Below, in pieces: positions 1 through 45,364 of a stretch of DNA of 64,000 bases (the stretch's first letter is position 1; each line of letters begins with the position of its first letter). The notes under the pieces were generated by a model. The model was not told where the DNA came from, did not search any database, and saw nothing but the letters and a program-made list of their open reading frames with translations. A program made the translations under genes and the position numbers. This DNA is from Loxodes magnus (lineage: Eukaryota; Ciliophora; Karyorelictea; Loxodida; Loxodidae): assembly GCA_946699065.1 (NCBI GenBank), contig CAMPDV010001815.1:39400-103399 (forward strand), written 5' to 3'.

Positions 1-2320
1 GCAGACTTCCTTCATTTTCTTCTAAACAACTATTATAAAATATTTTATCTCTTTTGTAAACTTATATGTTATCTCAGTCCATAAACTACTTAATCAAACT
101 CTAAGGAGCAGCCTAAGTTATTTCAGTTTATATTTATTTTCATCTGAATTCGTTTAAATTATCTCCATAATATTCCAAAATACTAAACTAATTTTAGTTA
201 TACGCACATAGCACTATTACATACAATTATTAGTTCTTTTCTAAAATTCTTGCTCCTTAAATTTTTATGTACTATTTCAAATTTTACTCTTTAGATAAAA
301 TTTCTTTTAATACGTAGTTTCCTTCTTATTCTTGTTTTTAAAGCTACTAAATTTTTAATATATTTTCATCGTAGTTTTTTGAAACTACAGTTGCAATATC
401 ATTATGAACTTTGAAATCTTCTATGAATCTTAGTCAGTGAATAGTAATTTAGTCTTTAGTGTTAAAAGTACTACCTTAAAAGTCTATTTAATCGAAGTTA
501 CATTCACGGAAATAAGTACATTATATTTTACATTTTCTTATCTTGCTTGAGCTTAAATTACACCTAACAAATACTCCATTTCTTAAATCCGCATTTTCAA
601 TTCTAAGATTATCGAAATCTTAGTCGATGAACTAGTAGCCTGCTTTAATAAGAATAGTTAGGGCATTAGAAGAAGCTACTTTTTATAATGGGTAAAGTTT
701 GGAGCTTTTAATAATACTCACCAATTACTTTATTAGGTCTTCATATTCAACTCCTGTTTTTGTTTAAATTAGTCCAACACAAAAATCAATTACTGCTGGT
801 TACTCACAGATTTATATCTGGTTGAAATTTTCTTCGATAATATTAAAATTTCCATCAAAAAAGAGTTTTTCCTCAAATATTCAATTTGAAAAATCAGGTT
901 CAAACAAATTAAGACACTAAAAATATTCAAATACACTTTTATGTATTCAATTATGGACATTTTCTTCCTCTTGCTGCTAATTCTATAGTTAGAAAGGTAA
1001 TGCTCTCAGTATAGCCTTTAGTTAATAATTTTTATATCCTCGTTTGTTAATAACTTCTTATAATTACTAAGATGTAAACTTTCCTTATGAATGTTGATCA
1101 TCTTAAAATTATTTTAAGCAAAGCTCCTTGCAAATTAAAAAGGTTTCTTAAATGAAAGATTTTATAAATTACTATGAATTTTCCTCCTCCTCATGATTAA
1201 TTTTACTGAGATATTCTTTCTAAATTTTGAACATTTCGATAAGAAAAGCATTATATATCATAAAATAGCTTCAAAATCCTTATTCTACCTTATTTTATAC
1301 TTCTAATTTTTCTTTTTCTTACTTTTCTTCATTTACTATCTAAAAAGAATCTAAATTTTCTGTCGTTGCTTAGATTTCAGATTTAGAATCAATTAAATCT
1401 TAATAAAGTTTTATTTTTGTTAGTAACTAAGTGATTTGAGTTAGAATGAACGGATTTTTTATTAATTCCATTAAGTTACTGTTTTTCTATATTATTGTCA
1501 TACATTCTTTTCCTGAGCTTATGTTCAACTATTTTGCCATGTTTTAATCTCGTTCTATGATTATATCAAAAAATTCTTAGATCATATTATTATCGAAAGG
1601 TTAAATGTAAATAATTTTGATATATTCATCACACTGCTTGCCATTTATTTTAGGAGAAAATAATTAATTATAATTCTCCTGCTTAATGATTTGCTAATAT
1701 CTAGATGTTGTAATAACTTTTATTTTTGGATAATCAGTAAAAATACTTTCTACTATTTTAGCTTGCTATTGTAATTCATCATATCCATCTAAAATGAAAA
1801 TCACTTCGCTATCATTCATTTCATTTATTTTTTATTTAATTTTCCTAAAGCGAACTTCATTTAATTTAGCTTTAATTGGATTTTATTCTTATGAATTACA
1901 AAGAGAAATTAAAATTGGAACTGTTTAATCTTCCTCAAGAAGTTTGTCATAAATTTTAAATGAGAGTGTTGTTTTTCCACTTCCTGAATCTCCAAATATA
2001 ACCAAATGTCTTGGCTGATTCGGTAATGTGTTTTTGCCTATATTAAAATCAGGCTTCAGGAATTAATATACCATTTCTAAGACATCTTGCTGATTTTGCT
2101 GGTCAATAATAGTATCAGCACATTTCAGTTTTACTAGATATTCTTTTTTCGAAACAAGAGAGCAAAAATCATCTTCCTCTTTTTATTTATCTATCTATCT
2201 TAAATTTTTTTCTCTATTTAAGTAATTTTTAATATCTATATCAAACTCTCTCTTTACTTTTTCAACAAAAACAAAATTCGACTAAATTTAATTTTCTTCA
2301 CTAAGAAAATTTTCTTGCAT
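1..2320 (-). CDS. NACHT-type NTPase with pentapeptide-like and propeller-like regions (C-terminal part cut by window edge)
   Basis: Read with TAA/TAG as Gln and TGA as Trp, the frame from ATG at 2320 is continuous to the window edge. A Walker A P-loop (GDSGSGKTT) sits at residues 110-118. A Walker B of NACHT type (ILDGYDEL) lies near 176-183, followed by a sensor-like TTSR near 204-207. This order is that of NACHT/STAND signalling NTPases, which switch between closed and oligomeric states on sensing a ligand. Further on, Cys/Asn/Phe-rich pentapeptide-like repeats (CNLSSSKIRKCKI) precede a repeat region. In-frame TGA codons fall at Trp-like places (GFWSYF, HNWIHKS). The remaining C-terminus is only visible in the second copy (28,488-32,900). 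Unlike that copy, this one has no frameshift before the P-loop/Walker B region. Ligand and pathway are unknown. Confidence 0.85.
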
Positions 2321-2631
2321 TATAATAGTGTAATATTTAACTTAATAAGTACTAAATATTATGAAATAATTTTTATTTTAGTAATGAAAATTAAGGAAAA
2401 TATTTAATAAATTATAATATGTTTTTTCTTTAAGCTAAAAAGGATAAATAAAATTTAGATTATCTTAAAATTAATTTTATATTAGCTTTATTAAATTAAA
2501 AATGAATCAATATGTAATAAAATAAAAAATAAATTTGTTATAAAAGTAGAAGCAAAAGTTAATATTGTAAAGATAAATTTCTTTTAGTATGATTTACTAA
2601 TTTCTATTTTTATGTAAATAGAATTAATTAA
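2321..2631. other. AT-rich spacer upstream of the NACHT gene
   Basis: About 310 bases of very AT-rich sequence between the NACHT start and the next gene's stop. I see no coding composition or clear motif. It presumably holds the NACHT promoter. Confidence 0.6.
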
Positions 2632-3379
2632 TCATTTTCGAAATGAAAGGTTTATCAGTTTTTTATTGAGTTATTTTCTGCCTGGTTATCAATGGCGGAA
2701 TTTTTCTTTAGTCTACTTCTAGTATAACCTCTTTTGGTTTGTGGTTGCTTCATGTTTTAGGTCTTGACAGCTAGGCTGGTTTGTCTTGTCCTGTATAAGT
2801 TCCTCTTGATGGAGTAACTCTCATCCTTCATTGGCTCTTAACATTCTTTGAATTATTCTCTCATTAATCGGAGTATCGTTGTCCTCCGAAAACTTAATAC
2901 TGCTCTAGTTTCACGGTTGCTTTTGCGAGTCTTTACTTCTCATCAATAGGATACTCCAACTCTCTCTATTAAAGCCATAGAATCTCAGTGAGAATTTTCC
3001 TTACATTCTTGACTAAGTCAAAGCTTTTTTCGCTATATCGGACTTACAATCTTTAGATTTTCTGCTAAGAATCCAGTGTGAATTTCCTTCAATAGATAAA
3101 TGGTCAATATTGAGAGCATTCCACTTTCGTTGTTACCACTCATCGTCTGATGTATGGCATAGATTTTCTTAAGCCCATATGTCTGGAGAAGTTTGATGGA
3201 ATCAGGAGAAGTGACACTCTATACTTACTCAATATCTTTCAGCTACCTTACAGATGTCGATCAAAGAGCTTCTACAACCTCAAGAAGTTGAGAAATAATT
3301 ATGCTCAAGCCAGACTTTCTCTCTAACATTTTCGTTCTGGTCTAAAGTTATGATGTAGGTCCTGCTCAAGATTCGACAT
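2632..3379 (-). CDS. Unknown Trp-rich protein, about 240 residues
   Basis: The frame ends at TGA (2632-2634). Its body reads as a balanced protein (for example SIEGNSHWILSRKSKDCKSD and INERIIQRMLRANEGWELLH). Trp is encoded by both TGG and TGA here; TGA occurs in TSWGC, RYWVS, FSWFH, QPWNQ and EGWEL. The second copy (33,212-33,953) differs by a 6-nt in-frame deletion that changes SQKQPWN to SQTWN and keeps the frame, which supports coding. The start is uncertain. The ATG at 3379 is in another frame and would need a short intron (a 13-nt GT..AG candidate) or an upstream exon. No family recognised. The many Cys, His and Trp residues could suit a metal-binding or transposase-like protein, but I cannot show it. 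Confidence 0.6.
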
Positions 3380-3752
3380 CTTTCAACGAAATATTATAAA
3401 ATAAAAAAAATGAATTTAATATATTTCCATATTAAAAATTTTATGTATTAATAAATAAAAATTTTAGTAAAAAGAACCGAGTAATTTTTGTAATTTATGA
3501 TATAAAAAAGTTATTTCAGAATGAAAAATTATTTTAGTATTATATATAATTTTATTCTAATACAATCATATTTCTAAATGTTACTATCAATCAACTTAAA
3601 AATATAAAATATATAGTTCTAAAATTAAGAATAAAAATGAAAAAATATTAAGTTCTAAGCGATAAATTGTAAAATAAATTTCTAATCATTCTTTTTAAAA
3701 ATAGTTTCTAGCTTTAAAAACTATAGTGATTATTAATTTTTATATTTTTATT
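3380..3752. other. AT-rich spacer
   Basis: Divergent intergenic sequence between a minus-strand gene to the left and a plus-strand ORF to the right. It is almost entirely A and T. Nothing else is seen. Confidence 0.6.
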
Positions 3753-4445
3753 ATGAATATTTAGTGAATAAATGGATTAAATCAAGAAGTATTAAATATT
3801 GTGTATGCGATAATCATACCCTTTGAAAACTAAATTTCTTCTTATTGTTGCAAGCAGATTAAATATAAATAGTTAGGAATGGATTTTATTAAGTTTAAAT
3901 CCCTACACTTTCAGGCTTATATTATAACCTTATAAAATTTCTCAAACTGTATGCTGATATATTAATAGTAAAAATGCTTTATATAAGCATCTAATAATTT
4001 AGCTATATTTGGTTAGAAAGAATTGAGTATTCAGTAAGTAACCACAATATACAAAGTAACGTTCTTTGAGGATATATAAGTAAGAATTTGCAATAGTTCA
4101 AACTTATTGTTATTAGAAAGTATTTTTTGATTGCTTACATCCAAGTTGTAATAATAAAGCACATATTAAACATCTTAGAAGGTCTATAATAAATATACAA
4201 CTAAAAATACCAAATTTGAATAACTCAAACTCATTTCATTTCTTACTACCACTTAAAGAGTAAAATGTAAGTTAGAGTATCTTCAATTATTTAAGATAAC
4301 AAAGAACAACGAAAAACGTTCTTAATATAAAAAATTGTAGAATAATAACGCTGTGAATTAAAAATTATATCTAAAATAGAAAATCACTTTTAGAAGTGTT
4401 TATTCAATAAATGTTTGTTTTGTGAGCTTAAATTAAACTATTTGA
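3753..4445 (+). CDS. Unknown protein, 230 residues
   Basis: ATG at 3753 to an in-frame TGA at 4443-4445. The product begins MNIQWINGLNQEVLNIVYAI and is rich in Gln, Leu and Lys. No domain was recognised. The best support is comparison with the copy at 34,327-35,019. Both are exactly 693 nt with the same TGA end, and differ by substitutions (several amino-acid changing) without a single indel, while the flanking AT-rich DNA is full of indels. Part of the middle (ISSYCCKQIKY) has a Cys pair. Because all three stop codons can be sense, an unrelated frame cannot be fully excluded. Confidence 0.5.
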
Positions 4446-4461
4446 TACCTTTTTACTATTT

Positions 4462-5532
4462 TCAATAAGTTAATAAAAAATGAAGTTGACTATTTAGCAT
4501 AATTTATTCATTAAGGATTAAATTTAAATTTAAAATTGGTACTTATAATTTAAGTATTAAGATTAATAATAGAAAATCATTTTAAATCAATAAATTAAGT
4601 TATGCTTTAGTTAATTTTTAATTAGTCTAATTGCTTATTTATTTTGAATTTTAATTTGTAACTTTAGCTAATTTTTACCTTTCTTGAATTTATGAATATA
4701 CATTTCTTGAGCGTTTATATGGGATTTTAAAATTCTTAAGTTTAGCTTCTATTCCTTCTATAGGCAGGAGTTGATTATTGATAATCCAGTCAGAAGGATA
4801 GGTCACTGTCAAAATCAAATGGATTTTGATTCTCATAAAAGATACCTTTCATGTAAATTTGTTGCTCAGACGTCGGTCTGGATCTTCTTTTTTTTATAGA
4901 TTTTACCCCGCGAATTGCAGTAAATGTTCATATATTTCTTAATCGTCCTCGTTTCCCTTTATTTTTGGTAATAAAACCTGCTCAGTATTCTTTTTATTGT
5001 TTCTAGAAATTCAGATAATTTTGATAGAGATGCCTTGTTTTCTTGCATGTATAGCATTTATTTTTTATTTCTTATAGGTCTTTCATGTTAGGAGAGTCGT
5101 TGAATAAGAAGAGAGGGGTGTTATGATTAGGAATCCATCATTCCATTGAAACTTGTATATACTTCATAACCTGTTCTTATAAAATTGAAAGCTTTTAATT
5201 AAGTTATGAGCTTTCTTGTTGCTTACCAATAACTCTTCAAGATTCCCAAGCTCTAATTTTAGTAACTTGATTTTCTCAAAACTTTTCTCAATATGAGTAA
5301 AATTTTCCAAGCTTCGATGCAAAAATTAAATGTTCATATATCGATCTTGCTTGAGCATTTTACTTCCTAGTTCAGCTCAGCCACGACTAATGAAAGGTCT
5401 TTTGATAAGGGAAAAATCGAATAACTGAGAGCGGTTGTTGTTTTATTTCGTCCTCAGTTTCTCATCAGTTGGTGGCATGTCTAGCGATGATCCTGATACT
5501 TTTAAAAATGGCTTGAAGGGCTTCTACTCCAT
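4462..5532 (-). CDS. Unknown protein, about 300-355 residues
   Basis: ATG at 5532 opens MEQKPFKPFLKVSGSSLDMP. About 300 codons of good protein composition follow, with a helical basic middle (SFEKIKLLKLELGNLEELLV) and a C-terminal part containing VTYPSDWIINNQLLPIEGIE. In-frame TGA reads as Trp in SRGWAEL, LLTWKTY and FTWKVSF. The last clearly coding residues are near 4645. The next in-frame TGA is at 4462-4464, so the true end may be a TAA near 4640. No family recognised. The equivalent region in block B (35,240-36,103) carries several single-base indels and looks broken, so only this copy appears complete. Confidence 0.55.
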
Positions 5533-5764
5533 TTGAGTGATGGTAACTTATTTTACTCCTTCTCGAATTTACTCCTCCTTTGAAGCTATTTAAAATACTA
5601 TTATTAAACTTTTTATTTTCTATATATTTTATCTTTCTAATTAATATTTCTCAGTTTATATGTTCCATTAGTTTTTTATTTTTGTCGTGTTAAATGATTA
5701 CTTTATTAACATGAGTATTCTTAAAATTGGAAATTATACTGATAAATTTTTTAACACTAGTCTA

Positions 5765-5799
5765 CTTCGTTAAAAAAAACGAAGACCGGCTTTTTTGCC
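5765..5799. other. Hairpin between divergent genes
   Basis: A perfect 7-bp stem CTTCGTT/AACGAAG with an A-rich loop (5765-5784) is followed by GGC-T6-GCC (5788-5799). It sits in the shared upstream region of the minus gene starting at 5532 and the plus gene starting at 5875, and is unchanged in block B (about 36,341-36,375). Its role is unknown. Confidence 0.5.
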
Positions 5800-5874
5800 A
5801 AATAAAATTAGAAAGGTAAAAATTAATAAGAATCTGAAGAGAAAAAGTAGAAATAATCAAAACTGAAAAAGAGA

Positions 5875-6620
5875 ATGTCCACACCTGCAAAGTAATAAGA
5901 AACTCCAGTTGACTAAGATCTTTCAGAAATTAATCTTAGTGAGGATCAAAATAGCATTGAGTAACTTACAGAATTAGTAAAAATTTTGCTTAATTAGGTT
6001 AAAAAGCTAAAGGAATAAAATCAAATATTGATAGAGAATGATGCAACCGTTGAAGATAGATTAATTAAATAAGAAAGAGAAATGGATGCCTATTGAAATA
6101 TTTAAACTGACTGCTCTTAGCAAATATAGTAAATGAAATTAGACTCATAGTTATAATTAATTAAATAAACAGAACGTTCATAATAGCCAGAACCAATGCG
6201 ATATTGGGGCAAATCAAATTTAAGAATAATTTTTAAACAATTAGCAAGGTTGTCAAATGGAAATTGAAAAGAGACCAAAAATTTATCAGAATACAATGTA
6301 AAGTAGAAAGTGCTTTACTGCAAGAAAAAAGAACACTAATAAAAATAGTGTAGAAATTTCTATGTATTCAAGAATGAATTTAATTATAGAGTTAAGAGAC
6401 TGACAGAAATAATTTATATTACTGAGAGAGGGTCTATTTATCAAATTAAAGAGACGAGCGCCAAAAGAATAGTAGAAAGGTAGATAGTGAGAGAAGAGAA
6501 ATGCAAGATTTAAGACAAGAAAAAATAGAAATGAAATAATAAACTTTTCCTTTTATCCACCAGACTATACTGATTGGAAAAAGGGAAATTGGTGAAAAAC
6601 CAAGAAGGCCTCTAAACAAT
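5875..6620 (+). CDS. Gag-like protein: coiled coil plus zinc knuckle
   Basis: ATG at 5875 gives MSTPAKQQETPVDQDLSEIN. A coiled coil (LVKILLNQVKKLKEQNQILI) and the family signature EREMDAYWNIQT follow. A CCHC-like knuckle (YCKKKEHQQKQC, first Cys of a classic knuckle missing) then leads into F..FK..F..R and RGSIYQIK. The same order and signature occur in the minus-strand gene at 16,263-17,104, which defines a family. Coiled coil plus zinc knuckle is typical of retroelement Gag/ORF1 proteins that bind nucleic acid, but no polymerase is seen nearby. The end is unclear. After about 6480 another frame (GEKPRRPLNNF) looks better, implying a short intron or frameshift. It converges with the gene at 6640-7230. 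Confidence 0.6.
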
Positions 6621-6639
6621 TTTATCTATAATAATAATA

Positions 6640-7230
6640 ATAATTTGCCTCTATTTTCTTTAAGGCTTCTGACAATTTCTTCTTCAATCAAAATTAGGTC
6701 ACTTTTATGTTAACTCATCTCCATTTTAAGTTGAAATTTTTGCTAGCTTTCTTCTATTTTCTCTATTCTATTTCCAATTTATGTCTACTTCTATTGCCAG
6801 CTTAAGATTGATTTTTTGTCTTATGAATGCTTCAGAAAGCATTTAAATCTCTTTCATGGGACATGAGTCTTGATTCGATTTCCTCCTGTTTGTTCAGACT
6901 CTCCATTAGCTTGTTATTGCTTTTTTCAGCTTCCTGACTTCTTCCTGGAGATTTAGCATCACTTTGTTGAGCTATTCCATACTCATCTAGCTAGAAGGAT
7001 TGAAAGAGACCTTCTAGGGAAGAGCAGACTTCATCTACTTCCTTGACTCTCTTATGAGGCTTAAGTTATTGCATGGATGATTTTCTTTGCTCGCTTCTGT
7101 TTTTCTTAACCTATGCTCCGGATTTTTAAGAAAAAGGTTAGGGTTAAGTTAAAGAAGACAAGCTGAAAGTGGCTTCTGGTTTCCTCTCCTTCTTGGAGGT
7201 GATATAGAAACTTGATTTGAAGCCTTCCAT
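6640..7230 (-). CDS. Coiled-coil protein related to the gag-like family
   Basis: ATG at 7230 gives MEGFKSSFYITSKKERKPEA, a Ser/Gln/Lys-rich leader, then SNNKLMESLNKQEEIESRLM and the signature HERDLNAFWSIH. That is the counterpart of ERE.DAYWNIQ in the two gag-like genes. After it the frame seems to shift into a long helix (LILIEEEIVRSLKENRGKLL), so an indel or small intron is likely near 6840. No zinc knuckle is visible, so this may be a shortened relative. It is tail-to-tail with the gene at 5875. The copy in block B has TAA instead of TTC as codon 4 and otherwise looks alike. Confidence 0.55.
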
Positions 7231-7569
7231 TTTATACTATTTTATTCAATAGATAATTTATAAATAAAAATATAACTAAAATAATTATTTTAAAATGTCC
7301 GTTTTTATAATATTACTTTCTTTCCTCAAAATTATATAAGATTTTACTTAGTTAAGAAAACATTTGTACTAAATTTTCAATTTACTAAGAATAAATTTTA
7401 AACAATTTATTAATTCATTTCTAAATTTTAAACAATTTTATTTTGTTATTTTTAAATAATTTTTTTAATTTTCTAGTGAAAGTGTTTTAAAATATAAATT
7501 AAGAATTAATTTTAAATTTAAATCATTTTAATTTAATTTTGCTTTAAGATTTTAATTTTGTAGTTATAA
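7231..7569. other. AT-rich divergent spacer
   Basis: Region between the starts of the coiled-coil gene (minus) and the kelch-like gene (plus). It is nearly pure A/T and must contain both promoters. No motif is recognised. Confidence 0.6.
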
Positions 7570-8481
7570 ATGGAGAATAAACTAAAATATTTTTCTAGAT
7601 GTATCTTCTTACGTAAGATTTTAAGAGAAAAAGGAAATATTTTAGGTAAAATTCCGCTTCTTCTGCTTAAGTATGAAATTCTACCTAATCTATGCTATAT
7701 TGAACTTTCAAAATACGTTGTAATTAACTTACGGGAAAAGAAGCTATAAGTTTGAGATACTTAAACTTAGAAAATAAAACTCTTAGAAATAGAAAATGAG
7801 AATATGAAAAATCCATAATCATTTATATTTTAACTGGATGATTAAAAACTTATATTTTCAAAAGACTCTCTTATTTTTTGTGAAAATCAGATTATTTTAA
7901 AAGAATACAAGTTAATTTATAATTATGAGGGAAATAAACTAACTCTTGATAAATAAAATAAATTGCTATATGTTATAAACTCATATCAATAAATGACTGA
8001 TTCATAATGTGAAGTGTTTGATATGAAAAAAAGGTAATCTAAATCTATTTAAGTTTGTCCTTATAGTGCTTTTGGAAATGGAGTAACTTATGCAAAAGAA
8101 AGTGTATATAATATAGGTGGATGAGTAGGACATATGAGCAAAGATATTTATTAATATGTTTGTATAAAAGACTAATGACTTAAGTTAGAAGATTTACTTT
8201 AACCTAAATCTCATGTGATGCAAAGTTTATTTATCTAGGAACTGGATTCAATATTACTTTTTGATGAATATTAGTATTTTGAGGGTACAGCTTTATATGA
8301 TTTTAAATAAATAATAAATCATGGACCGAATTTTCCTGTTCGATCTGGTGGCAGCTATCCAAACTTTTAGCCTTTGTTAAATAAAAAGAGAGTATATAGT
8401 TATGCAATAAATACTGATTCTTATGATCTTTGTGGATATGATATAAGAAAAAGAGAATGGAAGAAAGTTTTGAAAATTTGA
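7570..8481 (+). CDS. Kelch-like protein with shared FLRKI N-terminal module, 303 residues
   Basis: ATG at 7570 to TGA at 8479-8481. The N-terminal module (residues 10-41, RCIFLRKILREKG..., GKIPLLLLKYEILPNL) is shared with the SPRY protein at 17,227. The remainder is beta-rich with a kelch-type repeat: VYNIGGW (179-185) and DIYQYVCIKDQWLKL (192-206), then a second half ending YDLCGYDIRKREWKKVLKI. Kelch propellers generally bind other proteins. In-frame TGA codes Trp in QVWDT, IGGWVG and KDQWLKL, and the terminal TGA aligns with that of the copies at 38,143, 49,688 and 55,093. Three copies (A, B, C) are exactly 912 nt, which argues that they are maintained genes. Partner unknown. Confidence 0.8.
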
Positions 8482-9626
8482 GAGATTTTAACTTTTTATT
8501 TAAAATAAATAAATTTTAATTTTATCTCATAAGATTAATTATATTTTAATAAAAATGGAAAATAAAGAATAACCAAGTTTATTATATTTTTTAAATTAAT
8601 ACAAATTTAAAACTTATAAGAATATTTAAAAATCAAAATTTTTCAAATTGAATAAAATTTGAAAAAAGTCTTAAAAGTTCTTTAGTTATAATATGTTTAA
8701 ATATTAATTGATAGAATAAAATAAAAAATCCTTAATGATAAAGAGATTAATTAAAATTAAAATTTTTTAGTCTTATAATTTTTTAAGTTATTTTCTCTCT
8801 CTAAAATAGTAAAAAACACTTAAAATTGGCAAAATTATTTTTTAATACCTGCAAGTTAAAATAAAATACATTACACCAAAAAGAAAATAATTTGATACTT
8901 AAAAAAATTTAATTTACGAAATTGTATGATTTATGAACAGCCATATCTAATTTTTATACTTTTTAGATAGATTTTTTTTGTTTTTACTATATAAATAATC
9001 TTTTTTATTTTCATAGTAAAAACCTTATAAATAAAGATTATAGAAAATTGAATAATAAAATAATTAATATAAAAAGGAAATATAAAAGTTGGAATTATTT
9101 ATAAATTTTGTAAGTAAATATATTAAATTATTACAATTGCTTAAGTTTTTTGACTAAAATATATTAAAATATTTATTCAAATTTTAAGAATTTTAAGAAA
9201 TATTAATTTATTTAAGATATTCAAAACTTAACGGTAGTAATAAATTAAAATTTTTATTATTCTTTAAGATACAATTAAATTTTATCATATATTTATTTAA
9301 TTTTTCATTTTAGATATCATCAATAAAGTAGTTAATTTATTAAGAAAACTATCTTTTTTGTTATTTTTTTATTAATAGCTATGAAATATAATTTATACAG
9401 CTAATTAAATTTAGTATTATAAAAATGGAAAATTTCTTGAGAAAGTCTTTCTTAAAAGGATTAATTTCAGTCAAATTGCAATCAGTAAACTTTACTTCAA
9501 GACCTCAAAATTATGCAATAAGAAAATTTTAAACTTTTAATAAAAGTTAAGAGCTAGAAAGAAAAATTGATTACCTGATAATTTATATTATGTATATTAT
9601 ATTTTTAATAATCTTCAAATAAATAA
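8482..9626. other. AT-rich spacer
   Basis: Over 1.1 kb of very AT-rich sequence with many short poly-A and poly-T runs. No coding composition or structured repeat was identified. Confidence 0.6.
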
Positions 9627-9776
9627 AACGTATTTTGACAGTTCTAAGTAGCATAGATTAGGTAGAATTTCATATTTAAATAGAAGAAGAGGGATTTTAC
9701 CTAAAGCTTTTCCTTTTTCTCTAAGTATCTTACGTAAGAAGATACATCTTGAAAAATACTTCTATTAATTTTCCAT
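9627..9776 (-). pseudogene. 5' fragment of a kelch-like gene
   Basis: ATG at 9776 and about 50 codons match the start of the kelch-like genes (YFSRCIFLRKILREKG, then LGKIPLLLFKYEILPNLCYL). Similarity stops after ELSKYV, and AT-rich DNA follows. This is a truncated copy facing the intact gene at 7570, so the two form a long inverted similarity. A matching fragment is at 40,202-40,350. Confidence 0.8.
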
Positions 9777-10070
9777 TTTTATAAAGAAGAGTTGATTAAT
9801 TAATAATTTAAATTATTTTATTTTTATTATTTAATATTTAATAAAATAATTAAAACACTAGGTAAAAATGCTTTTGCATGATAAAAATCAACAAGCCTTA
9901 TCAAAATTCTTAAATGTTTTTTCTTTTAAACAAATATGAACCTAAAAATTAGTAAAATTTAATTTGCATTTTATAATTTTTTATTTGCTTTGAATCATAT
10001 TGATTCTTATAAAAGTAATATACTTCATATGCTATTATTAATATGGAAGGAACAATAATTAAAAAGATGG

Positions 10071-10345
10071 TGGGAACTGAGATTGACCTTCTGAATCATA
10101 CTTTCTGGTTTTATGGCTAGGAACAAGTTCCTTTCCTGTCGCTGAGAAAGTCCCTGGTCAAAGTCAACCTTTGCAAGGGAACACCTTCCTCTTGATTATC
10201 CACTCCTGGTAGGGGCTTGAAACCTGGCTGCCCATAGCGATGGAGCTCCCTGGCAGCTACTTTTCGAAAGCAACAGGATATCCCCGTTATCCCATGAAGG
10301 GAGTGTTGGGGTCGTTAAACTGCAAGAAGTTGCGGTCAAAAACTC
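10071..10345 (-). pseudogene. Decayed copy of dispersed ORF family 2 (SSIAM family)
   Basis: A GC-rich island related to the open frame at 26,906-27,207. Aligned in the minus direction it keeps GSSIAMGSQVSSPYQEWII, but other segments align only in other frames (for instance DFDQGLSQRQERNLFLAIK), so there are at least two frame changes. The short direct sequence AATATGGAAGGAACAA lies near both ends (about 10,039-10,054 and 10,365-10,380) and may be an insertion-site duplication of roughly 16 bp. An RNA-level function is an alternative. Confidence 0.55.
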
Positions 10346-10380
10346 TTTAAGTTGAAATTAATTAATATGGAAGGAACAAG

Positions 10381-11829
10381 AGTATGAAGTGATAAATAAA
10401 CAAGAAAAATTAATAAAAAGCACTTTATTAAAACGGGAAAAGAAAGACGGTATTAAAATATATCTTAAAATAAACATATATACTGATGAAAAAGAATAAC
10501 TCAAAGTTTATTCTGTTTAATTTTTTATATTTGAAAGAAATTTTTTTAATTCCTAAAAATAGAAATTTAAAAAAATTTCAGTAAATCATAAGATATTCTA
10601 GGTAGAAGTTTAAAATTTAAGGGTAATTTTCCTACCATCTTTATTATGCATTAATAATTTAAGAGTTATCTTTATTCTTAATTTTATGATAGATAGAAAA
10701 ATCCTTTTAACAATCCTTCTGAAAATTTGATATAATAGAATTTACTTGATTAATAAGATTAATTAATAATATAAAAAATATTTAATTTGTATAAATAAAA
10801 TAATCGAATAGATATCTTTCTTAAAAATTAACTACTTACGTAATGATAAATAAAATGAAAAATTTAATAATTAGATGATAAAATTAAATTGTATCTTACT
10901 AATAAAACAATTTTAATTAATTACTTTTGCTAAATTATTAATATCTTAAATAATTTAATATTTATTAAAATTAAAAAAATTGAATAAATATTTTAATATA
11001 TTGAGTCAAAAAATTTAAACAATTGTAATGATATTTTTACTTAGAAATTAAATAATTTTTCATTCTCTTTTTAACTTTTTTAATTAATTATTTTATTATT
11101 CAATTTTTAGTAATTCTTAATAAATAAAATTTTACTTTAAAGCATTTAAAATTATTTATATATTTAAAAAGGTAAAAGAATCTTTAAAAAATATAAAAAT
11201 AAGATATATTAGTTTTAAATTTAAATTATATTAGTAATTTTTCTTGTAGTTTCATATTTATGAAATTAAGATATTTAAATTTAAAACATTTATGGGGTTG
11301 ATTAAATTTAATGCTTTTTGATATTCCATTATTTAAATAAACAAAATTAAAACTAAAAATACATTAAAAAGTTAGACTAAAATGAGCTAGTTTATTTAAC
11401 TTGTAATTGCTTAAAAAGAAAAATTAATTTGAATAAATATTTGGATTTCTAAATAAATTATAATAAAGTAAATTAGTAAATTTTATTTTTGTAATTATTA
11501 GTATTAAATTAAGTATTATATAAGATTGTTTATTATTAATTTGCTAATATTTATTACTTTAATCTAAAAGTAATTTATAAATTTTATTTATATAATATAT
11601 CCTCTATTTCTTAAAATGAATAAGCAAAAGCATATCTATTACTTTCTTATCTTATCATGATATATTTATAGAAATTAAATATATATTATATTTATTTAAT
11701 TTATTTCATCTATATTTAGATAGAATTAGCAAGATATATTTTATTTAGTACTACATTAATTATAATAATTTTCTTAGTTTGCAAATAATTGGAAAAAGTA
11801 TTTCTTTAATGAGCTTATTAATATTGATG
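10381..11829. other. AT-rich spacer
   Basis: About 1.4 kb of A/T-rich DNA without recognisable coding composition on either strand. Short repeats such as ATTTAAATTT are frequent, as expected from the base composition. Confidence 0.6.
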
Positions 11830-12170
11830 AAGGAGATAGAAGATAAAAGATAAAAGAAGTGTAATAAGCATAAGAATTTATCAAATTGACTTAAAAAGAG
11901 AGAATTATATTTCTTATTTAAAAGAGTTTAATCTTATATGTCTACAAGAAGTTAAAGAAATATTAGAAAAAATTACATTGATATTTATCTGGTACAAATT
12001 TTTTAAAATCCTTGAATGCTAACTATTTTAAAAGATAAAAATTTCAAATTAGAATATTAAAGAGAGAAATTTCAGAAAAAATAGCTTCAAGACATATTTT
12101 ATGTTAGAGCTGATGATTAATTATAAACTTCTCTCGAAGTTAAGAAATATTTAAAATTCTAAAAATTAAA
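11830..12170 (+). pseudogene. Possible relic of an endonuclease/exonuclease/phosphatase-fold protein
   Basis: One frame reads KREN, then YISYLKEFNLICLQEVKEIL. This resembles the first conserved motif of the EEP fold (..DIICLQEV..), found in AP endonucleases, CCR4-type nucleases and LINE endonucleases. Nothing downstream shows the later catalytic motifs. The block B copy (42,350-42,760) has a one-base deletion inside the motif, so it is probably a dead fragment. Assignment rests on one short motif. Confidence 0.35.
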
Positions 12171-13127
12171 TTAAATAAAAATGTTCTTGCAAGTCACCAA
12201 TTTTTAGAACGAAAATAAATTATAAATAAAATAGGAAAAATTAAATAGATACATATGATTAATTAGTAAACATAGACTAGTAGACTAATTTTAAGTAATT
12301 TTTTAGGATTAAATTTAATGCTTTTTAAAACTAAGAGAGATAAGTTTAAAGATAAAAATAAAAAACCAAGAACAAACTTTAGTAAGAGATATAAATATTA
12401 AATAAAATATAGTTAAATTAGATAAATATTAGAAGCAGTAAAATATAAATTTAAATAAATGTAGTATGTTCTAATTAAATTTAAATATTTTGGTTTTAAA
12501 TTAATAACTAATAATTTTAAATTTGCTTAATTATCTTAATAAGCTTTTATTATTTATAAAATTTACTTTCATTTATCTTTAATTTTATTATCTTTTAGAT
12601 AGAATTTGCTTTATAATTTCTTTATCAAAAAAGCTCAACATTTGTAGCAATAAATGATTTTAATAGCTTTTTTCCTAATATTTTTATATTATTTTTACAT
12701 ATTAATTAAAAAAAGTGATATTTTAAACATTAAGCAATTAATCTTTAATTTAGAAACTAAAAAAGAATAGTTGAATAAATAACTTATTAGATAAAGTAGC
12801 TAGTTTGTTATTAAATTAATAGTTTAATAATTGTATTTTAAGAGAAAGTTAATTGATTCATATTAAATTAAAATAAGTTATAGTACTTCTGTTATTAATA
12901 AATATAACAACTATAGTTTGCTTTACATTCTTAAGCTACTCTAAGCTAATCTATTTTAAGACGAATAAATAAATTATCAAAGATATAAATTTTAATTAGT
13001 ATAACAGCAAAAAATATAAGCATTATTAAAGCAATTAATTAATATAGACTAACATTTATAATTAAAAATATAATATTTTTATATTATTTATTTAAGCAAT
13101 TTAATTAAAATTATTATAATAATTAAC
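12171..13127. other. AT-rich spacer
   Basis: Nearly 1 kb of A/T-rich sequence between the EEP-like relic and the small-gene cluster. Nothing supportable. Confidence 0.6.
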
Positions 13128-13372
13128 CATACCACTTCCACCTTTATTAGGTTCATCATTCTATCGAAGTTTCCTATTTTTTTAATTCCAGTCTTCGAAT
13201 GATCGCTTTCCTTAAAATATACCTTTTCGTTCTGATTTGACCCCTTTATATTATTTGAATTTTGCTTCAGTCAAGATCCCTGCTAGATTTTATTCGTTCT
13301 TTCTTTATATCAAAATTACAGTTTTTTAATATTATGAAACTTTTTAAGGTAGATTTTAGGTTCTAAATCCAT
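13128..13372 (-). CDS. Small protein or exon, frame uncertain
   Basis: Two frames look protein-like. One starts at an ATG at 13,372 (MDLEPKIYLKKFHNIKKLQF). The other, without ATG, contains SERKGIFQGKRSFEDWNQKN and ends LRQNDEPNKGGSGMVN. The second resembles the tail of the neighbouring gene at 14,105 (FINNDETNNGTPR), so I favour it and suspect an upstream exon. It opens the cluster of small genes. The block B copy has only substitutions here. Confidence 0.4.
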
Positions 13373-13414
13373 TTGATCGACAGCAACATATTATAAAGAA
13401 ATTTAACTTAAAAT

Positions 13415-13789
13415 ATGGATGGTGAGTCTTAAGCTAGTCTCTAGCTTGAGACTCAATATCGGAAAAAGCAGATCTTATTCTGTAGTCCGCGCCTCAGAAG
13501 CTCTCCTATTCATTATGCCGTCAACTTGATAGAAGCTTGGTGGAAAGCAAGGCATAGCTGAGGCAAAAATAAACTAAGATTTTTAACTATAGAAGATACT
13601 CAAGACTGATTTTTGTACTAGAATGAGAATTCCTTAAGAATTCCAACTCCGACCTTAGTCAGAATCACAACAATGGAGAGAAGAAGGTTTCATATTTGTG
13701 AATTAAAACAAGGATAAAAGAGTATCTAGACTATTTTATTAAAATATTAATCCGTGGATAGCCTATAATGGCAGACCCACGTTAATTAA
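13415..13789 (+). CDS. Unknown 124-residue protein
   Basis: ATG at 13,415 gives MDGESQASLQLETQYRKKQI, followed by SSPIHYAVNLIEAWWKARHS and PTLVRITTMERRRFHICELK. TGA reads as Trp in ARHSWGK and TQDWFLY. The block B copy (43,999-44,373) has about six substitutions and no indel across 372 nt. Immediately after the TAA at 13,787-13,789 the copies differ by a 4-nt indel in a TTAA tract, which suggests this TAA is the real stop. A near-perfect inverted repeat (13,424-13,454) lies in codons 4-13. No family recognised. Confidence 0.6.
13424..13454. other. Inverted repeat inside the small ORF
   Basis: GAGTCTtAAGCTAG and CTAGCTTgAGACTC are complementary over 14 positions with one mismatched pair and a 3-nt loop, so the transcript could form a strong hairpin just after the start codon. 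It is unchanged in block B. Confidence 0.6.
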
Positions 13790-13837
13790 TTAATTAATTT
13801 ATTTATAAAGAAATATGATTTTCGTCAACTCCACGAA

Positions 13838-14077
13838 TTAATAAAATTTTGTTTCTAATTGTTGTATTCTCTTATCTGCTGAATAATCATTTTCCTTTTT
13901 TTATTTTCGATAGTAGAAATTAGATATGTAATTTTTCCTTTCAAGTTCTTGTATGTTTCTTTAAATTTTAGAATTTTCCTCTTCCAAATTTTTTTGTTCT
14001 TTAAGTGCCGCTTGCTAATTGTAAATTGGTTAATATGAGCTCTTTTTAGAAGAGTCTTTTTGCAAGATATTTTACAT
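13838..14077 (-). CDS. Small coiled-coil protein, 79 residues
   Basis: ATG at 14,077 to TAA at 13,838-13,840. The product starts MQNILQKDSSKKSSYQPIYN and continues as a charged helix (LKEQKNLEEENSKIQRNIQE, then LERKN and ADKRIQQLETKFY), a coiled coil. The block B copy at 44,426-44,665 is the same 240 nt, without indels. It may be a separate gene or the last exon of the gene at 14,105. A one-base indel between them in block B favours separate units. Confidence 0.5.
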
Positions 14078-14104
14078 TTTAAGTTTTATATATAAAAAAA
14101 TAAA

Positions 14105-14427
14105 TTAGCGTGGTGTACCATTATTAGTTTCATCATTGTTAATAAATGAACCCAACTTTTATTGTAAATATTATTCAAGAAAATTTTCACGTTTCACTTG
14201 GCCTCCTTGATGCTCTTGTGCTATTTATGATTCCATTTCCAGCATGTCTAATACTTATTAATTTGATAGATTTAAATCAATTTCTTAATTGATAGGTTCG
14301 CCTCTATTTCTGCTCTTGTAACTTTGATCCACAATAAGTTAATTTATTTTTCCCTAACTGGATAATATTTTCTTCTTTTATTCATTTTTAGAATAAAATT
14401 TTACTACATTCTTTATCTATATTCTTT
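14105..14427 (-). CDS. Unknown protein, 5' end unclear
   Basis: The frame contains SSQGKINQLIVDQSYKSRNR, then SNQQVLDMLEMESQIAQEHQ and ENFLEQYLQQKLGSFINNDE, ending NGTPR and TAA at 14,105-14,107. Composition is good, with balanced charge and many Gln from TAA/TAG. No in-frame ATG appears before 14,245, so it probably has an upstream exon, perhaps joined to the ORF at 14,517-14,771. It resembles the ORF at 13,128-13,372 at its C-terminus. No family recognised. Confidence 0.5.
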
Positions 14428-14516
14428 AAATTTTTTAATAAGACTAGAAATAGAAAAAATTCAAATTCTTATGTTAAATAGCATTTGATTTAAATTATTT
14501 TAAATAAAAATTATAA

Positions 14517-14771
14517 TTATTCTTGGTCTCAATTATGTCTTCAGATTTTTCCAACTCCTGTCCAGATTAGAGGAAACTAGAGGACTTTTAGAATGGACTT
14601 AAATGTCCGCCATTTCAACCACTAATGCTGGGCTATTAGTCAGTTTCTTGTACCGCTAGAGAGAATATTCGAATAAGAAAGGCTCATAAAGTATATGTCC
14701 TTGTTTATCCTTGTAGGTCAATAGAGTCTAAACTGCATCGAATTATCTACTTAGCTGGACGCTTCGTCCAT
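14517..14771 (-). CDS. Unknown Trp-rich protein, 84 residues
   Basis: ATG at 14,771 gives MDEASSQVDNSMQFRLYWPT, then RINKDIYFMSLSYSNILSSG and a Trp-rich end (NWLIAQHQWLKWRTF, GVGKIWRHNWDQE). TGA encodes Trp in LYWP, RNWL, KIWR and HNWD. TAA at 14,517-14,519 is taken as the stop because the sequence turns AT-rich there; an in-frame TGA lies at 14,382. The start codon overlaps a GGACG-CTT-CGTCC hairpin (14,757-14,769). The block B copy is indel-free. It might be the first exon of the gene at 14,105. Confidence 0.55.
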
Positions 14772-14777
14772 TTTTCA

Positions 14778-15245
14778 ATTATATGTAATAAAATTTTCTA
14801 TAATTAAGTTTTTGTAACTTTAATTGTACTTTATAATAGTTTTTTAATCCATTCTATTTCATATAAACTTGAATAAAATTGTTCCCATTAATCATCTATT
14901 AGGTTAATCACTCATACAGAATACACATTAACTTGATTTCCATCACAAACGATTTTGATAGAACATATATAACACTTAATTTGTTAATTCCCTTCACTTC
15001 TAATTTTGAAGACTTTGACTGACAATTATTAAAACTAGCATACTAATTATTATCTCTAAGCTATTTTATAAATTTTATTTACTCTAATCAACATCATTAT
15101 CTACTCCATATGAGCAAAATTAATAATTCACTAAAATTTAAAATAATTAATATTACTAAAAATTCTAATCTAAAATAGTTCTTTACCTAGATGTCCAAAC
15201 TATGAAAATTTGTAATCGACTAATATTAAAATGATTAAGAAATAT
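14778..15245 (-). pseudogene. Relic of the 3' end of the NACHT gene
   Basis: Similar at the DNA level to 28,540-29,040, the TLDc-like and zinc-binding end of the NACHT gene. Examples are KCYICS for KCYVCS and the shared stretch ACTCTAATCAA...CATATGAGC. Several frameshifts and loss of the Cys ladder show it is dead. Since it lies inside the duplicated block, the NACHT gene was partly copied before the A/B duplication. Confidence 0.7.
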
Positions 15246-16262
15246 CTAATGTATAAGATAAACTTCAATTAAGTATATTTAAGATAATAAATTAATAATA
15301 AAAATATAAGTTTAAATAGTAGGAATTCTAATAAAAATTAGAGAAAAATAAAGAATATCATTTTTAAATAAGAGCTATTAATTTTATGACTATTACTAAA
15401 AACATATTATGAATAATAGTTCAGTATAAACTATAATTAAACCTGATTCATTTTTTACACCAATATTCTAATTTTTTAAGTAAGTATTATCAAGAAATTT
15501 ATAAGATATTATAAACATAATAGTTAAAATAGAAAACTATTTGGGAATTATTTTACTCTTAGTCTTTTTTACTTATAGTTTTTTCTAGCTTATAAATGAA
15601 AATAATTTTGATGACAGTAATATTTAATAATTTATATGAAGTGATTACATTTTTTATAATTTAATAGTTTTTCTATAAAATCTTAATCCATATTAAATTT
15701 TTGAATGTTCTACATTTTTAAATTTTATTAGCAAAAGTAATAAAGCTAATTCGTAGAATTGATTATCATTTAATATTATTTATTTTAATTAAAACTATTA
15801 ATTAATATCTAATTTAATTTAATTTTTAATAATATTTTAAATTTAGTTTTTTAATAAATTAAATCTTTGTTTTAATTTATATTGCAAAACAATTTTAAAT
15901 TTATGTTTAATTTATATCATTTTGTAGGATCTATTTTTATTTTAAACTCTTAAATAATATTCTAAATTTTAATTTCCAATTATTTATATAGTATAAGTTA
16001 AATAATTTTCATTACAAATTTCTTATTATCAATTTATTATATTTTTATAAAAATATGCTTCAAATCAAAATACATTTACGTATTATTATTTATTTCATAT
16101 TGCTAATTATTAATGTCAACAATTCTTATATCTTAAAAATATTAATTAAACTTTTCCTTCTTATAATCTTAACAATGTATTACCTTTTAAAATTAAGACA
16201 TTTTTTAATTATAATCTTTTATTTGCGAATCATATATGATAATGATAATTAAATTAAAATGT
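15246..16262. other. AT-rich spacer
   Basis: About 1 kb of A/T-rich DNA present in three near-identical copies (also at about 45,833 and 57,238). It contains a 65-codon hydrophobic reading frame that looks like a composition artefact. Nothing else is seen. Confidence 0.6.
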
Positions 16263-17104
16263 TCAACAGTGCTAATCTGGACACCGTTTAAAATAAGTTG
16301 TTTTATCAGCAACACTTCTCATCATTCTTGACTATCTAATGAAATTATCTTCACTAAGGTCTTCTCAATTTCTTTGATTTCTTGTTCTTATTATTTCAAA
16401 AGGTACTTCACATCATTTTCTTCTGTAAATATCTCCATGCTAGTTACAATAGAGCCTCTAGTATTTTTCTTATTCTTTACGCCTAAATTTTCTCTTGAAA
16501 TTCTAAAATTTTTAGCAATTCTTGTACAAATGTAACTTACTCTTACAGTAGTAGCGTTTTTTCCTTACTTATCTGATTGGTTTTCGATTTATAACCTCTT
16601 TTTATTCTATCTCCATCTAATTTGTCTAGTTAGTTATGTTTGTGCTAATATTCTTTTGCTTAATAAACTCCAACTCTTGTTTTTATACGATATTTCTAAG
16701 CCTTGATGTTTCTTATCTATGTTCAGTTTAAATGTTCCAATATGCTTGTAGTTCCCTTTCTTAATTAATAATTCTAATCTCTAAGTTATCTTATCCAAGT
16801 GATAATAAGTTTCTTAGTTCTTAATTTTCCTACTTAAGCACTTTAATCTCTTCCTAGAGATTGAATATTTCAAATACTAACTGTTAAATATTTATTTCCT
16901 TTTTAATTATCTTTGATGGAAGTTCTTTTCCTGCTATTATATTAGATTCCTTTCTTTTTATTACTTTAGGAGGTGTTTATTATAGTTATTAGGTTCTTTA
17001 TTAGTTTTGTAGTGAGGAGAAGAAGACTCTTGATACTTTTTATTCTAGAGCTTTTTATCTTCTTTGCTCAAGAAAAAGCTGAGAACAAGATTTTAAGACT
17101 CCAT
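16263..17104 (-). CDS. Gag-like protein: coiled coil plus zinc knuckle (second locus)
   Basis: Ends at TGA 16,263-16,265 (RCPDQHC-stop). The core frame reads LVFEIFNLQEEIKVLKQENQ, then the signature QERELQAYWNIQTE, a helix, and a knuckle YYCKSKLHLYKNC followed by F..FKRKFRRK and HGDIYRRK. It matches the gene at 5875 throughout, including the spacing from signature to knuckle. The ATG at 17,104 is in another frame than the core, so either a short intron near 16,960 or a frameshift is present. Copies are at 46,850 and 58,256. Coiled coil plus knuckle suggests nucleic-acid binding as in retroelement Gag. It is head-to-head with the SPRY gene. Confidence 0.65.
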
Positions 17105-17226
17105 TTTTATTTGAATTTTGCGAATCATATATTTATAGATTTTTAATAAAAGTTTATAAGATTAAATCAAATTTAGTTAATTTAAATCATTTTAAATTTA
17201 TAATTTTCAAATCTTTATTTTATAAA

Positions 17227-17943
17227 ATGTAAGCGCACCTTTTCTAGAACGAAAGCGCTTAGCTTTGTAAAATTCTATTTTTAAGAAAAATAGCAAAGAA
17301 GGGTTAAGCAAATTAAAATGGAGCTTATTTTGGTAGAATTCCCTTTTTACTTAGCAAATTTGAAATATTTCCAAATTTATCTGCTTTACCTTGTAAGTTC
17401 ATTTGAAGCGAAAAAATGAAAACTTCAAATTTTAGAATTGAAAATGAAGTGAAAATCATAAGCACATAAAATGGTGTATTCAAGTCAGCATTGATGGAAC
17501 CAAAACTTAAGCCTGGCTTAATTTATGAATTGGATTTTGAAATATATCAAAATAGAGCTTTTGATATTAAACTAGGATTATGTAAAAGTTCTTTTAATTA
17601 ATTTGAAACCTGTTTTTCAAATAACAATTTAGGTTGATCATGGTTTTCAGGTGAAGGAGAATTGAGACATAAATCTGGAAAAACTAGTAAAAAATATGGA
17701 ACAAAAACGACTTAAAAAAACATTATAAAAATGATAGTAGACACAAAAAAAGGAAATTTAAGCTACGATTTAAATGGAAAAAGCTAAGGAATCGCTTTTT
17801 AAAATGTACCTGCGTTTAAAACTGGTGAAATAAATGTTGCAATCAGCTTTAATGCAGATAATAGTTATTGCAAGCTATTAAAATCAAAAATGAAATACCT
17901 TTCTAAAAGACAGTAAAGAGAAAAACTGAAAACTAAAATTTAA
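17227..17943 (+). CDS. SPRY-domain protein with shared FLRKI N-terminal module, about 238 residues
   Basis: ATG at 17,227. Residues 14-51 carry the module CKILFLRKIAKKG..., FGRIPFLLSKFEIFPNL, the counterpart of the kelch protein's N-terminus. The C-terminal half is a SPRY (B30.2-like) fold: LGWSWFSGEGELRHKSGK (about 135-152), then GNLSYDLNGKSQGIAFQNVP (176-195) and INVAISFNADNSYCKLL. SPRY domains bind short peptides or partner proteins and occur in immune and ubiquitin-ligase proteins. TGA is Trp in GWSW and in the N-terminal FIWSEK. The stop is unclear: in-frame TAA codons at 17,914 and 17,941 are candidates and no near TGA exists. Copies are at 47,829 and 59,238. Confidence 0.8.
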
Positions 17944-17986
17944 AAAATAAATTTATTTTATAAGTAGATTAGAATATAAGCATTTT

Positions 17987-28487: not shown

Positions 28488-31400
28488 TCATAATTGTTTT
28501 CCTTCTACACAGATATCACAGTAAGCAACATTGTCGAAAATGTCGTAATAAAATTTTCTATATTTAAAGTTTTCTTTACACTAGAAGCATTTTATCTTAT
28601 TTTCTTAAATGTTTATTCCATTCTATTTCATTGCTTTTAGAGCTAAATTTGCAGGCACTTTTTTTCCTGTTAACCATCTATTAGGTTAGTGATACATACA
28701 AAACCGGATATTACATTCATAGCAGTTTCAATGCAGACCATTATTTTTAGAAGAGCATACATAGCATTTAATTTCTTCGTTTGATTCACTTTCCTTAATT
28801 TTTAACTTCAAGGAATGTTGCTGCTCACATTTATTGTAACTAGGATATTAATTATTTGCTCTAAATTTTTTCGATTCTATCAGATCAAATTTACTCTAAT
28901 CAAGACCTTTAACTATTCCATATGAGCTATTGAAATTAAATCATCCATTAGATCCAAGGCTTATTTTTAATTTAAATTCATTATTCTCAACTTTAAATAT
29001 CCAAGCTGGTAGATTCTTATAGCCATATAAATATTTGTTATCTATATCTCATTTCAAATTCTTATATAAAGAAGTACCAAAAAATATAAAATCAGAGAAG
29101 TTAGTAAATTTCCAGTCATTTAAATGTTTACTCTTTTATTCTGATTTCAAGTTTAAATACTGAGCTAAATCAATAATTTGAACACTCTTGAATTTTTAAA
29201 ATTAAATCCAGAAAGCAGTAGTAAATGAGTTTAATCTATGACTTTTATGAATCCTAAATAATCGTTAATATCATCTGTATAAAAGTGTTCTAATGCATCT
29301 ATTTGCTATACTACTAGTTAATCTTCTTCTATATATATAAAATATTTATCAGTTAAGTCAAATGATCATGTATTTTCTATCTGTTTAGACTTATTTATGA
29401 AAGTTTTCTAGGTAGTAAAAGTTAATTATGATGTATCGTGCTTAAAGTCTTGATAATCAACTTAGTTAAATTCGAGAAAAAGTTTGTTATCTTACATTTC
29501 CTATTTGATTATGCCTAAAAAATAATTTTCCTTGTAAAACACTAAATTGTTTATAAAGAAAGGGTTCTCATCTAAAATTATTTTATTTAGAAATGGCCAC
29601 CAACGAAAAATATATCCATTAATTTAATCATTTCCCTTTTAATAGAAAAAGACAATAACATTTTCCTGCTTTAAAATTTTAAAATTGCCTATTATGTTAT
29701 TCTAAAACTTGACTCCTGGATTATGTGTTTGGTTAAATCTCAGGTGATGTACTTTGTAGTTTTCACCGTTGATATAGAAAATATCGTATTGACTTATTAT
29801 GATGAGATCTTATTTCATAAATTAAAGAAAAAGTCCTTCGTTAGAATCATTTCTTATTTCTAAATTAGTTTAAGCTTACATTGTACCGTTCTTTCTCATA
29901 ATTCACATTCTTAAAATTATTCTTTCTTTTATTACTCTTTGCTTGCAAAAAGCTATCAACTCTAAATTATCTGAAATAGTGTAAATAGGTCATTCTTTCC
30001 TGATGACTGAATGTAACTATGTAAGTTCGGATTAAGAGCTTAAGAGAAGTTTTTCTAAGTTTATCATTCTTATTTATTTATCGTATTCAGCTATGATTCA
30101 TATAAATTTTTCTTCGCTGTTCACTCAGTTAAAAGATCCCATCACTTAGAATAATAAATTTCCATTCTAGATATCAATAACAGACAAGTTCAATATATTC
30201 GTAGTAATTAGCCACTTGGTGTTATTTTTTACAGGTGCTTAATCGTCTAAGTAAACTTCTACTATTTCATTCTTTTCCAAATCATGAATTCTTATAAAAT
30301 AATAGTGAAAAACTGCTAGTTTCTATTTATTTAATTGTTTGATGTATAAAATATTTCCTTCGTCAATGGATTTCATCGATTCAAGATTAATCAATGAACG
30401 TTTTTATTTTTGTCCTATGTCAATTAGAATTAACTTTTTTTATGCAATAATTCCATAAAAAAGAATTTTACCCTCTTTATAAACTTCCACATTAATCAGC
30501 TCCTCGGTTTCATTCAGATCTAAATCTATATGTAGAAGCTTTAATTTACCTTCTCTAAGCATGTGATCAAAAACCAGCAGACTTCCTTCATTTTCTTCTA
30601 AACAACTATTATAAAATATTTTATCTCTTTTGTAAACTTATATTTTATCTCAATCCATTCATTACTTTATCAAACTCTAAGTGGCAACCTAAGTTATTTC
30701 AGTTTTTATTTATTTTCATCTGAATTCGTTAAAATTATCTCCATAATATTCCAAAATACTAAACTAATTTTAGTTATACGCACATAGCACTATTACATAC
30801 AATTATTAGTTCTTTTCTAAAATTCTTGCTCCTTAAATTTTTATGTACTATTTCAAATTTTACTCTTTAGATAAAATTTCTTTTAATATGTAGTTTCCTT
30901 CTTATTCTTGTTTTTAAAGCTACTAAATTTTTAATATATTTTCATCGTAGTTTTTTGAAACTACAGTTGCAATATCATTATGAACTTTGAAATCTTCTAT
31001 GAATCTTAGTCAGTGAATAGTAATTTAGTCTTTAGTGTTAAAAGTACTACCTTAAAAGTCTATTTAATCGAAGTTACATTCACGGAAATAAGTACATTAT
31101 ATTTTACATTTTCTTATCTTGCTTGAGCTTAAATTACACCTAACAAATACTCCATTTCTTAAATCCGCATTTTCAATTCTAAGATTATCGAAATCTTAGT
31201 CGATGAACTAGTAACCTGCTTTAATAAGAATAGTTAGGGCATTAGAAGAAGCTACTTTTTATAATGGGTAAAGTTTGGAGCTTTTAATAATACTCACCAA
31301 TTACTTTATTAGGTCTTCATATTCAACTCCTGTTTTTGTTTAAATTAGTCCAACACAAAAATCAATTACTGCTGGTTGCTCACAGATTTATATCTGGTTG

Positions 31401-32900: not shown

Positions 32901-33211
32901 TATAATAGTGTAATATTTAACTTAATAAGTACTAAATATTATGAAATAATTTTTATTTTAGTAATGAAAATTAAGGAAAATATTTAATAAATTAAAATAT
33001 GTTTTTTCTTTAAGCTAAAAAGGATAAATAAAATTTAGATTATCTTAAAATTAATTTTATATTAGTTTGATTAAATTAAAAATGAATCAATATGTAATAA
33101 AATAAAAAATAAATTTGTTATAAAAGTAGAAGCAAAAGTTAATATTGTAAACATAAATTTCTTTTAGTATGATTTACTAATTTCTATTTTTATGTAAATA
33201 GAATTAATTAA

Positions 33212-40919: not shown

Positions 40920-40954
40920 TTTAAGTTGAAATTAATTAATATGGAAGGAACAAG

Positions 40955-45358: not shown

Positions 45359-45364
45359 TTTTCA

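Follow-up and report, generated by a model that had tools for sequence, protein, structure and literature searches.

The genetic code of Condylostoma magnum is NCBI table 28. All 64 of its codons are sense codons and stop meaning is assigned by position (PMC4967479), and a tRNA-Trp with an anticodon stem of 4 bp has been described for the organism (PMC13092985). Table 27, in which TAA and TAG specify Gln and TGA specifies either Trp or stop, has been described for Loxodes magnus (PMC11441545) and Parduczia sp. (PMC4967479). In L. magnus transcripts, UGA and UAA are depleted over about 20 codons before the stop whereas UAG is not, and introns are most often 17 nt long, compared with 15-16 nt in heterotrichs (PMC11441545). 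In the nonstop code of Blastocrithidia the three stops are also sense codons, TGA being read as Trp by a tRNA-Trp(CCA) with a 4-bp anticodon stem (PMC12153298, PMC13092985).

The window analysed here is a stretch of 64,000 nucleotides of L. magnus DNA, part of contig C1815; wider searches covered the assembly of 705,730,643 bases in 7843 contigs. With a probability of about 0.97, the window uses table 27, with TAA and TAG as Gln and TGA as Trp in the gene body and as stop at its end. This karyorelict code has already been published for the group and is not new. What is new is a set of kelch-type paralogues that serves as a clean test family: of its two invariant Trp positions, one lies near the stop and the other well away from it. 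Codes that lack a dedicated stop rank among the strangest on record, and this one was recovered by an initial annotation from the raw DNA alone. The source was there guessed to be a karyorelict, Condylostoma or a relative, which narrows to a karyorelict in view of a 17-nt intron and of the gene ends examined, which are TGA with one TAA exception. The following kelch features are found at the first locus:

7570 to 8481, forward strand: kelch-family coding sequence of 303 amino acids, with 14 TAA and 4 TAG (Gln), 3 internal TGA (Trp) and a TGA end
7753 to 7755, forward strand: internal TGA at codon 62, TGA in all five window copies in the DNA alignment
8122 to 8124, forward strand: internal TGA at codon 185, TGA in two of five copies and TAT (Tyr) in the 49-, 55- and 61-kb copies
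8176 to 8178, forward strand: internal TGA at codon 203, the kelch-motif Trp, TGA in four of five copies and TGG in the 55-kb copy
8458 to 8460, forward strand: C-terminal invariant Trp, codon 297, 7 codons ahead of the stop
8479 to 8481, forward strand: terminating TGA, aligned in all five window copies

That the frame is open under table 27 is in itself no evidence, since its content of standard stops (21 in 303 codons, about 30 being expected from base composition) is near chance. The kelch name is well founded for the family and marginal for the 7570 copy, whose Kelch match in Pfam (E 0.032) lies under the cut-off, while Kelch_1 was found in 21 of 34 members. A profile of the 34 members detected solved kelch propellers with an E-value of 6e-14. 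Masking of all stop codons in 17 members still led to solved kelch propellers (chain E 1e-6), albeit with no single stretch passing alone. With the stops masked, a single domain alignment, itself of low confidence, placed the codon-203 TGA column opposite a Trp of a solved kelch protein.

The remaining kelch copies of the window are:

38143 to 39054, forward strand: sister kelch copy, inside the 18-kb duplication
49688 to 50599, reverse strand: third kelch copy, its protein 83% identical to that of the first
54822 to 56305, reverse strand: block with the 55-kb kelch copy; deletions of 17 nt and 1 nt relative to the other copies disrupt its frame
61049 to 62013, reverse strand: block with a fifth, previously unlisted kelch copy, with four 1-nt insertions relative to the other copies

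Positions 1-17986 are duplicated at 30577-48588 with 98.3% identity, and 45552-52583 at 56957-64000 with 99.3% identity; both duplications are recent. The 7570 and 38143 copies are sisters, as are the 49688 copy and the fifth one. The four kelch paralogues that had been reported are thus not independent and represent three lineages, and the fifth had been missed. Because of the indels, the columns in the 55- and 61-kb copies align as DNA and not as one unbroken frame. Within this alignment, internal TGA does stand opposite Trp or Tyr codons, as had been said, and the final TGA is common to all copies. The further statement that similarity ends after the final TGA holds only in part: similarity to the 7570 copy runs on for about 40 nt in the 49- and 61-kb copies; in the 55-kb copy it extends for about 270 nt, and in the 38-kb copy it continues through the 18-kb duplication.

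Two further frames had been used in the initial annotation, under the names SPRY and NACHT:

17233 to 17859, forward strand: SPRY-domain frame with 7 TAA, 2 TAG and 2 TGA, with relatives at 47835-48461 and 59240-59869
29207 to 32846, reverse strand: P-loop NTPase-like gene (the NACHT frame), its frame broken by 4 inserted nt when compared with the copy at 5-2266 (reverse strand)

The SPRY name stands, with a Pfam match of 35.6 bits against a cut-off of 26.3. Against solved structures, the SPRY frame gave two weak matches that are of no use for TGA columns. For NACHT, the N-terminal piece of the gene reached 18.7 of 26.7 bits, its P-loop matches being mostly sub-threshold, and DUF87 and RNA_helicase just attained their cut-offs. 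Pentapeptide-repeat matches of the longer piece are below the cut-off. Between the two recent NTPase duplicates there are 9 synonymous and 12 nonsynonymous codon differences, with no sign of constraint. A Trp-rich possible frame of about 200 codons, 5 of them TGA, has no Pfam match and occurs at 2737-3342 and 33317-33916, both on the reverse strand. A Pfam search of all six frames of 2401-7200 gave no match at 0.001.

In the whole genome, at least 130 kelch members were found that are 48-100% identical to the query. The analysis covered 70 loci, many of them close relatives, and a set of 44 representatives with codon identity under 93%. On several contigs the kelch members have equal scores and similar places, perhaps as haplotypes or assembly duplicates. 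A coding-potential scan trained on two kelch copies mostly recovered kelch copies again and was replaced by another scan. Codon exchange was counted in 26 disjoint kelch pairs, which yielded 21 TAA-TAG, 15 TAA-CAA, 7 TAG-CAG and 6 TGA-TGG exchanges. The last correspond to 37 per 1000 codons, compared with 30 for AAA-AAG, and the rates of both TAA/TAG-CAA/CAG and TGA-TGG exchange lie inside the known synonymous range of 0 to 50 per 1000. By comparison, TGA-CGA gave 0/161 and TAT-CAT 9/1129. Single exchange rates are noisy, as is evident from the synonymous pairs CAA-CAG and ACA-ACG, for which there were no exchanges, and from TAA-AAA (18) and TAA-GAA (13), which were about as frequent as TAA-CAA.

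TGA columns unrelated to Trp had been named as evidence that would speak against the Trp reading. One column consists entirely of Trp codons and holds only 37 of the 91 TGA of the 44 representatives; the remaining TGA columns consist largely of Tyr or Leu codons or are mixed, and they contain a few TGG. At codon 62, for instance, the representatives carry TGA (16), TGG (2), Tyr (21), Phe (4) or Leu (1). A column vote, with the tested codon and all stop codons left out, favoured Lys rather than Gln at TAA and TAG; at TGA, Trp ranked behind Tyr, Leu and Phe. The vote failed for 25 of 60 ordinary codons and was judged uninformative because it was equally wrong for CAA and CAG, which came out as Lys, and for TGG, which came out as Tyr.

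The near-chance stop density of the 7570 frame, the indels in two of the five window copies, the NTPase duplicates without sign of constraint and the size and duplication of the kelch family are what would be expected of untranslated pseudogenes or AT-rich chance frames. This explanation is nevertheless exceedingly unlikely. The TGA at the kelch Trp is shared by 23 of the 26 pairs, and the substitutions downstream of it are distributed over the three codon positions as 149/80/223 (chi-square p 2e-15). The corresponding numbers for the 60 nt after the final TGA are 35/43/51, a weak third-position excess, and 144 gap columns occur in these 60 nt, against 7 of 7901 gapped codon columns in the coding sequence. 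These figures argue that translation continues past the internal TGA and that protein constraint stops at the final one. Moreover, 66 of 70 loci have ATG where the query starts, an in-frame TGA follows at most about 8 codons past the end of homology in 68 of 70, and the same codon use is seen in actin, eRF1, CCT and kinase genes.

Two columns of the family are invariant for Trp. About 101 codons before the end, at codon 203 of the 7570 copy, the 44 representatives have TGA (37) or TGG (7) and nothing else; about 7 codons before the end, at codon 297, they have TGG (43) or TGA (1). As the paralogues are related, the contrast was also counted by parsimony, which gave 7 changes versus 1 (p ~0.035, one-sided, by hand arithmetic). 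All Trp codons taken together, TGA occurs once and TGG 43 times in the last 20 codons, versus 89 and 14 times more than 35 codons from the end. For the Gln codons, the last 20 codons contain 10 TAG and 3 TAA, against 172 TAG and 601 TAA more than 35 codons from the end, nine of the ten near-end TAG forming a single column in related copies. Judged from these counts, the kelch family shows the published depletion of TGA and TAA near the stop with retention of TAG, the TAG part coming mainly from one column in nine related copies. The choice of codon at two invariant Trp positions reveals the position rule without RNA data, and the paired contrast is a tidy new illustration of this known rule.

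Outside the kelch family, an actin (L102) and an eRF1 (L080) could be aligned almost full length to solved structures with their stops masked as X, and the residues facing TAA, TAG and TGA were counted. In eRF1 versus the human protein, TAA falls on Gln in 7/13 and TAG in 2/7 cases, and CAA, the yardstick, does so in 2/7. Within the GGQ motif, Gln is encoded by TAA. In actin, TAA falls on Gln in 3/7 and TAG in 0/2 cases, and TGA and TGG each fall on Trp in 2/4, the other two TGA facing non-Trp residues. From these small numbers, the reassigned codons match their own residue about as often as ordinary codons do. Among the best 20 of 136 listed kinase domains, the Trp of the DxWSxG motif is encoded by TGG in 16 cases and by TGA in 4, and the near-identical pair L108 and L116 differs by TGG/TGA at this very position. 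Two other TGA were seen in kinase stretches, one in L118 where relatives carry Trp and one in L121 without a clear counterpart. The meanings assigned in the initial annotation are borne out by these data, Gln for TAA and TAG by codon exchange in kelch pairs together with eRF1 and actin, and Trp for internal TGA by kelch exchange, actin, the DxWSxG motif and the all-Trp column. Homology thus shows that TAA and TAG behave as Gln codons in the genes examined; homology and position together show that TGA is Trp within the gene body and stop at the gene end.

A 17-nt GT-AG intron was found in a Pelota gene, the excision of which restores the reading frame and takes out a TAG. Very short introns therefore exist, as would be needed if the in-frame stop codons lay in spliced-out sequence. 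The position of such codons within the conserved GGQ and DxWSxG motifs, and the gapless homologue alignments across them, make this a vanishingly improbable account compared with translation of the codons as amino acids.

The termination role of TGA, also claimed initially, agrees with the ends of kelch, eRF1 and actin genes, with the position effect and with the end of codon constraint. Both eRF1 genes end in TGA, and in both actins read the conserved C-terminal KCF is followed by TGA. The eRF1 paralogues L080 and L081 (C196) have no internal TGA; their final TGA is followed by two codons and then a second in-frame TGA. Two kelch loci are exceptional: L049 lacks an in-frame final TGA, and L027 has TAA at the stop position of its relatives, the 30 codons that follow being free of TGA. 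The latter, 1 of 70 loci, would fit a Condylostoma-type source (table 28), in which TAA and TAG terminate too and which has the same sense meanings (PMC4967479). Such a source is very unlikely given the TGA ends of 68/70 kelch loci, 2/2 eRF1 genes and 2/2 actins and the retention of TAG near gene ends (one column, nine related copies); the single intron read is 17 nt long, versus 15-16 nt in heterotrichs (PMC11441545).

Under table 27, TGA would be an efficient sense codon, and the chance that it is instead a stop with low-level readthrough is very small. The best 43 of 96 actin matches contain no TGA, and neither do 20 of the 22 CCT matches that are near full length, as might be the case for a poorly read codon. 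On the other hand, of the 103 TGA and TGG codons that the 44 kelch representatives carry far from the end, 89 are TGA, as are 37 of 44 codons in the all-Trp column. The best actin matches have nearly equal scores, often with many per contig; a lower-scoring actin on C15 has four internal TGA.

A pattern search of the genome for tRNA-Trp(CCA) gave 133 matches, versus 25 in a reversed control. All but four of those listed are on C67 and C148, in tandem arrays. Among the matches listed, the arrays span C67:482323-491201 and C148:155464-168457, the repeat period being about 187 bp in the former and about 241 bp in the latter. One tRNA-Trp(CCA) was read per array (L124, A-C; L125, U-C), and each has a 4-bp anticodon stem with the top pair unpaired. 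L126, outside the arrays on C110, is a tRNA-Trp(CCA) with a 5-bp anticodon stem, and the fourth place read (L127) was not recognised as a tRNA. The tRNA-Trp(UCA) pattern gave 13 matches, fewer than the 28 of its control; a search of this kind does not detect a tRNA that deviates from the pattern. For UUA/CUA anticodons, there were 738 matches versus 91 in the control, and for CUA 80 versus 8. Among 29 UUA/CUA matches listed, 10 were one identical Gln-like UUA match. Some others are presumably Lys or Arg tRNAs, to judge from their loop shapes. With UUA/CUA matches so abundant, high copy number seems not to be special to tRNA-Trp. ARAGORN and Rfam found nothing in the 64-kb window.

Elsewhere, 4-bp-stem tRNA-Trp has been linked to the reading of UGA, and it has already been reported for Loxodes (PMC13092985). 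The main text of the Loxodes genome paper (PMC11441545) does not mention tRNA, and a limited literature search, with the key eLife paper outside its scope, retrieved no report of tRNA-Trp arrays. It is conceivable, if doubtful, that TGA-reading tRNA-Trp is set by gene dosage, with the 4-bp-stem genes of the arrays set against a 5-bp-stem gene possibly serving TGG alone. In that case, how frequently TGA is read as Trp or as stop would be fixed by the balance of the two forms together with the distance to the gene end. From this genome and published work, it is likely that tRNA-Gln with UUA and CUA anticodons would read TAA and TAG, and that the release factor would win at TGA only near the poly(A) tail; the avoidance of in-frame TGA near gene ends is proposed to follow from the latter.

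No difference was found between the window and the karyorelict table 27 code of L. magnus and Parduczia sp., the meanings of TAA, TAG and TGA being the same. The likeness extends to the avoidance of TGA and TAA, with TAG kept, just before the stop and to the 17-nt intron (PMC11441545). The code of C. magnum resembles it in the positional meaning of stop and in the 4-bp-stem tRNA-Trp but differs in that its TAA and TAG also terminate, whereas the gene ends examined here are TGA, with one odd TAA exception. Blastocrithidia shares the sense use of all three stops and the Trp reading of TGA, but its TAA and TAG specify Glu and its TAA terminates (PMC12153298, PMC13092985).
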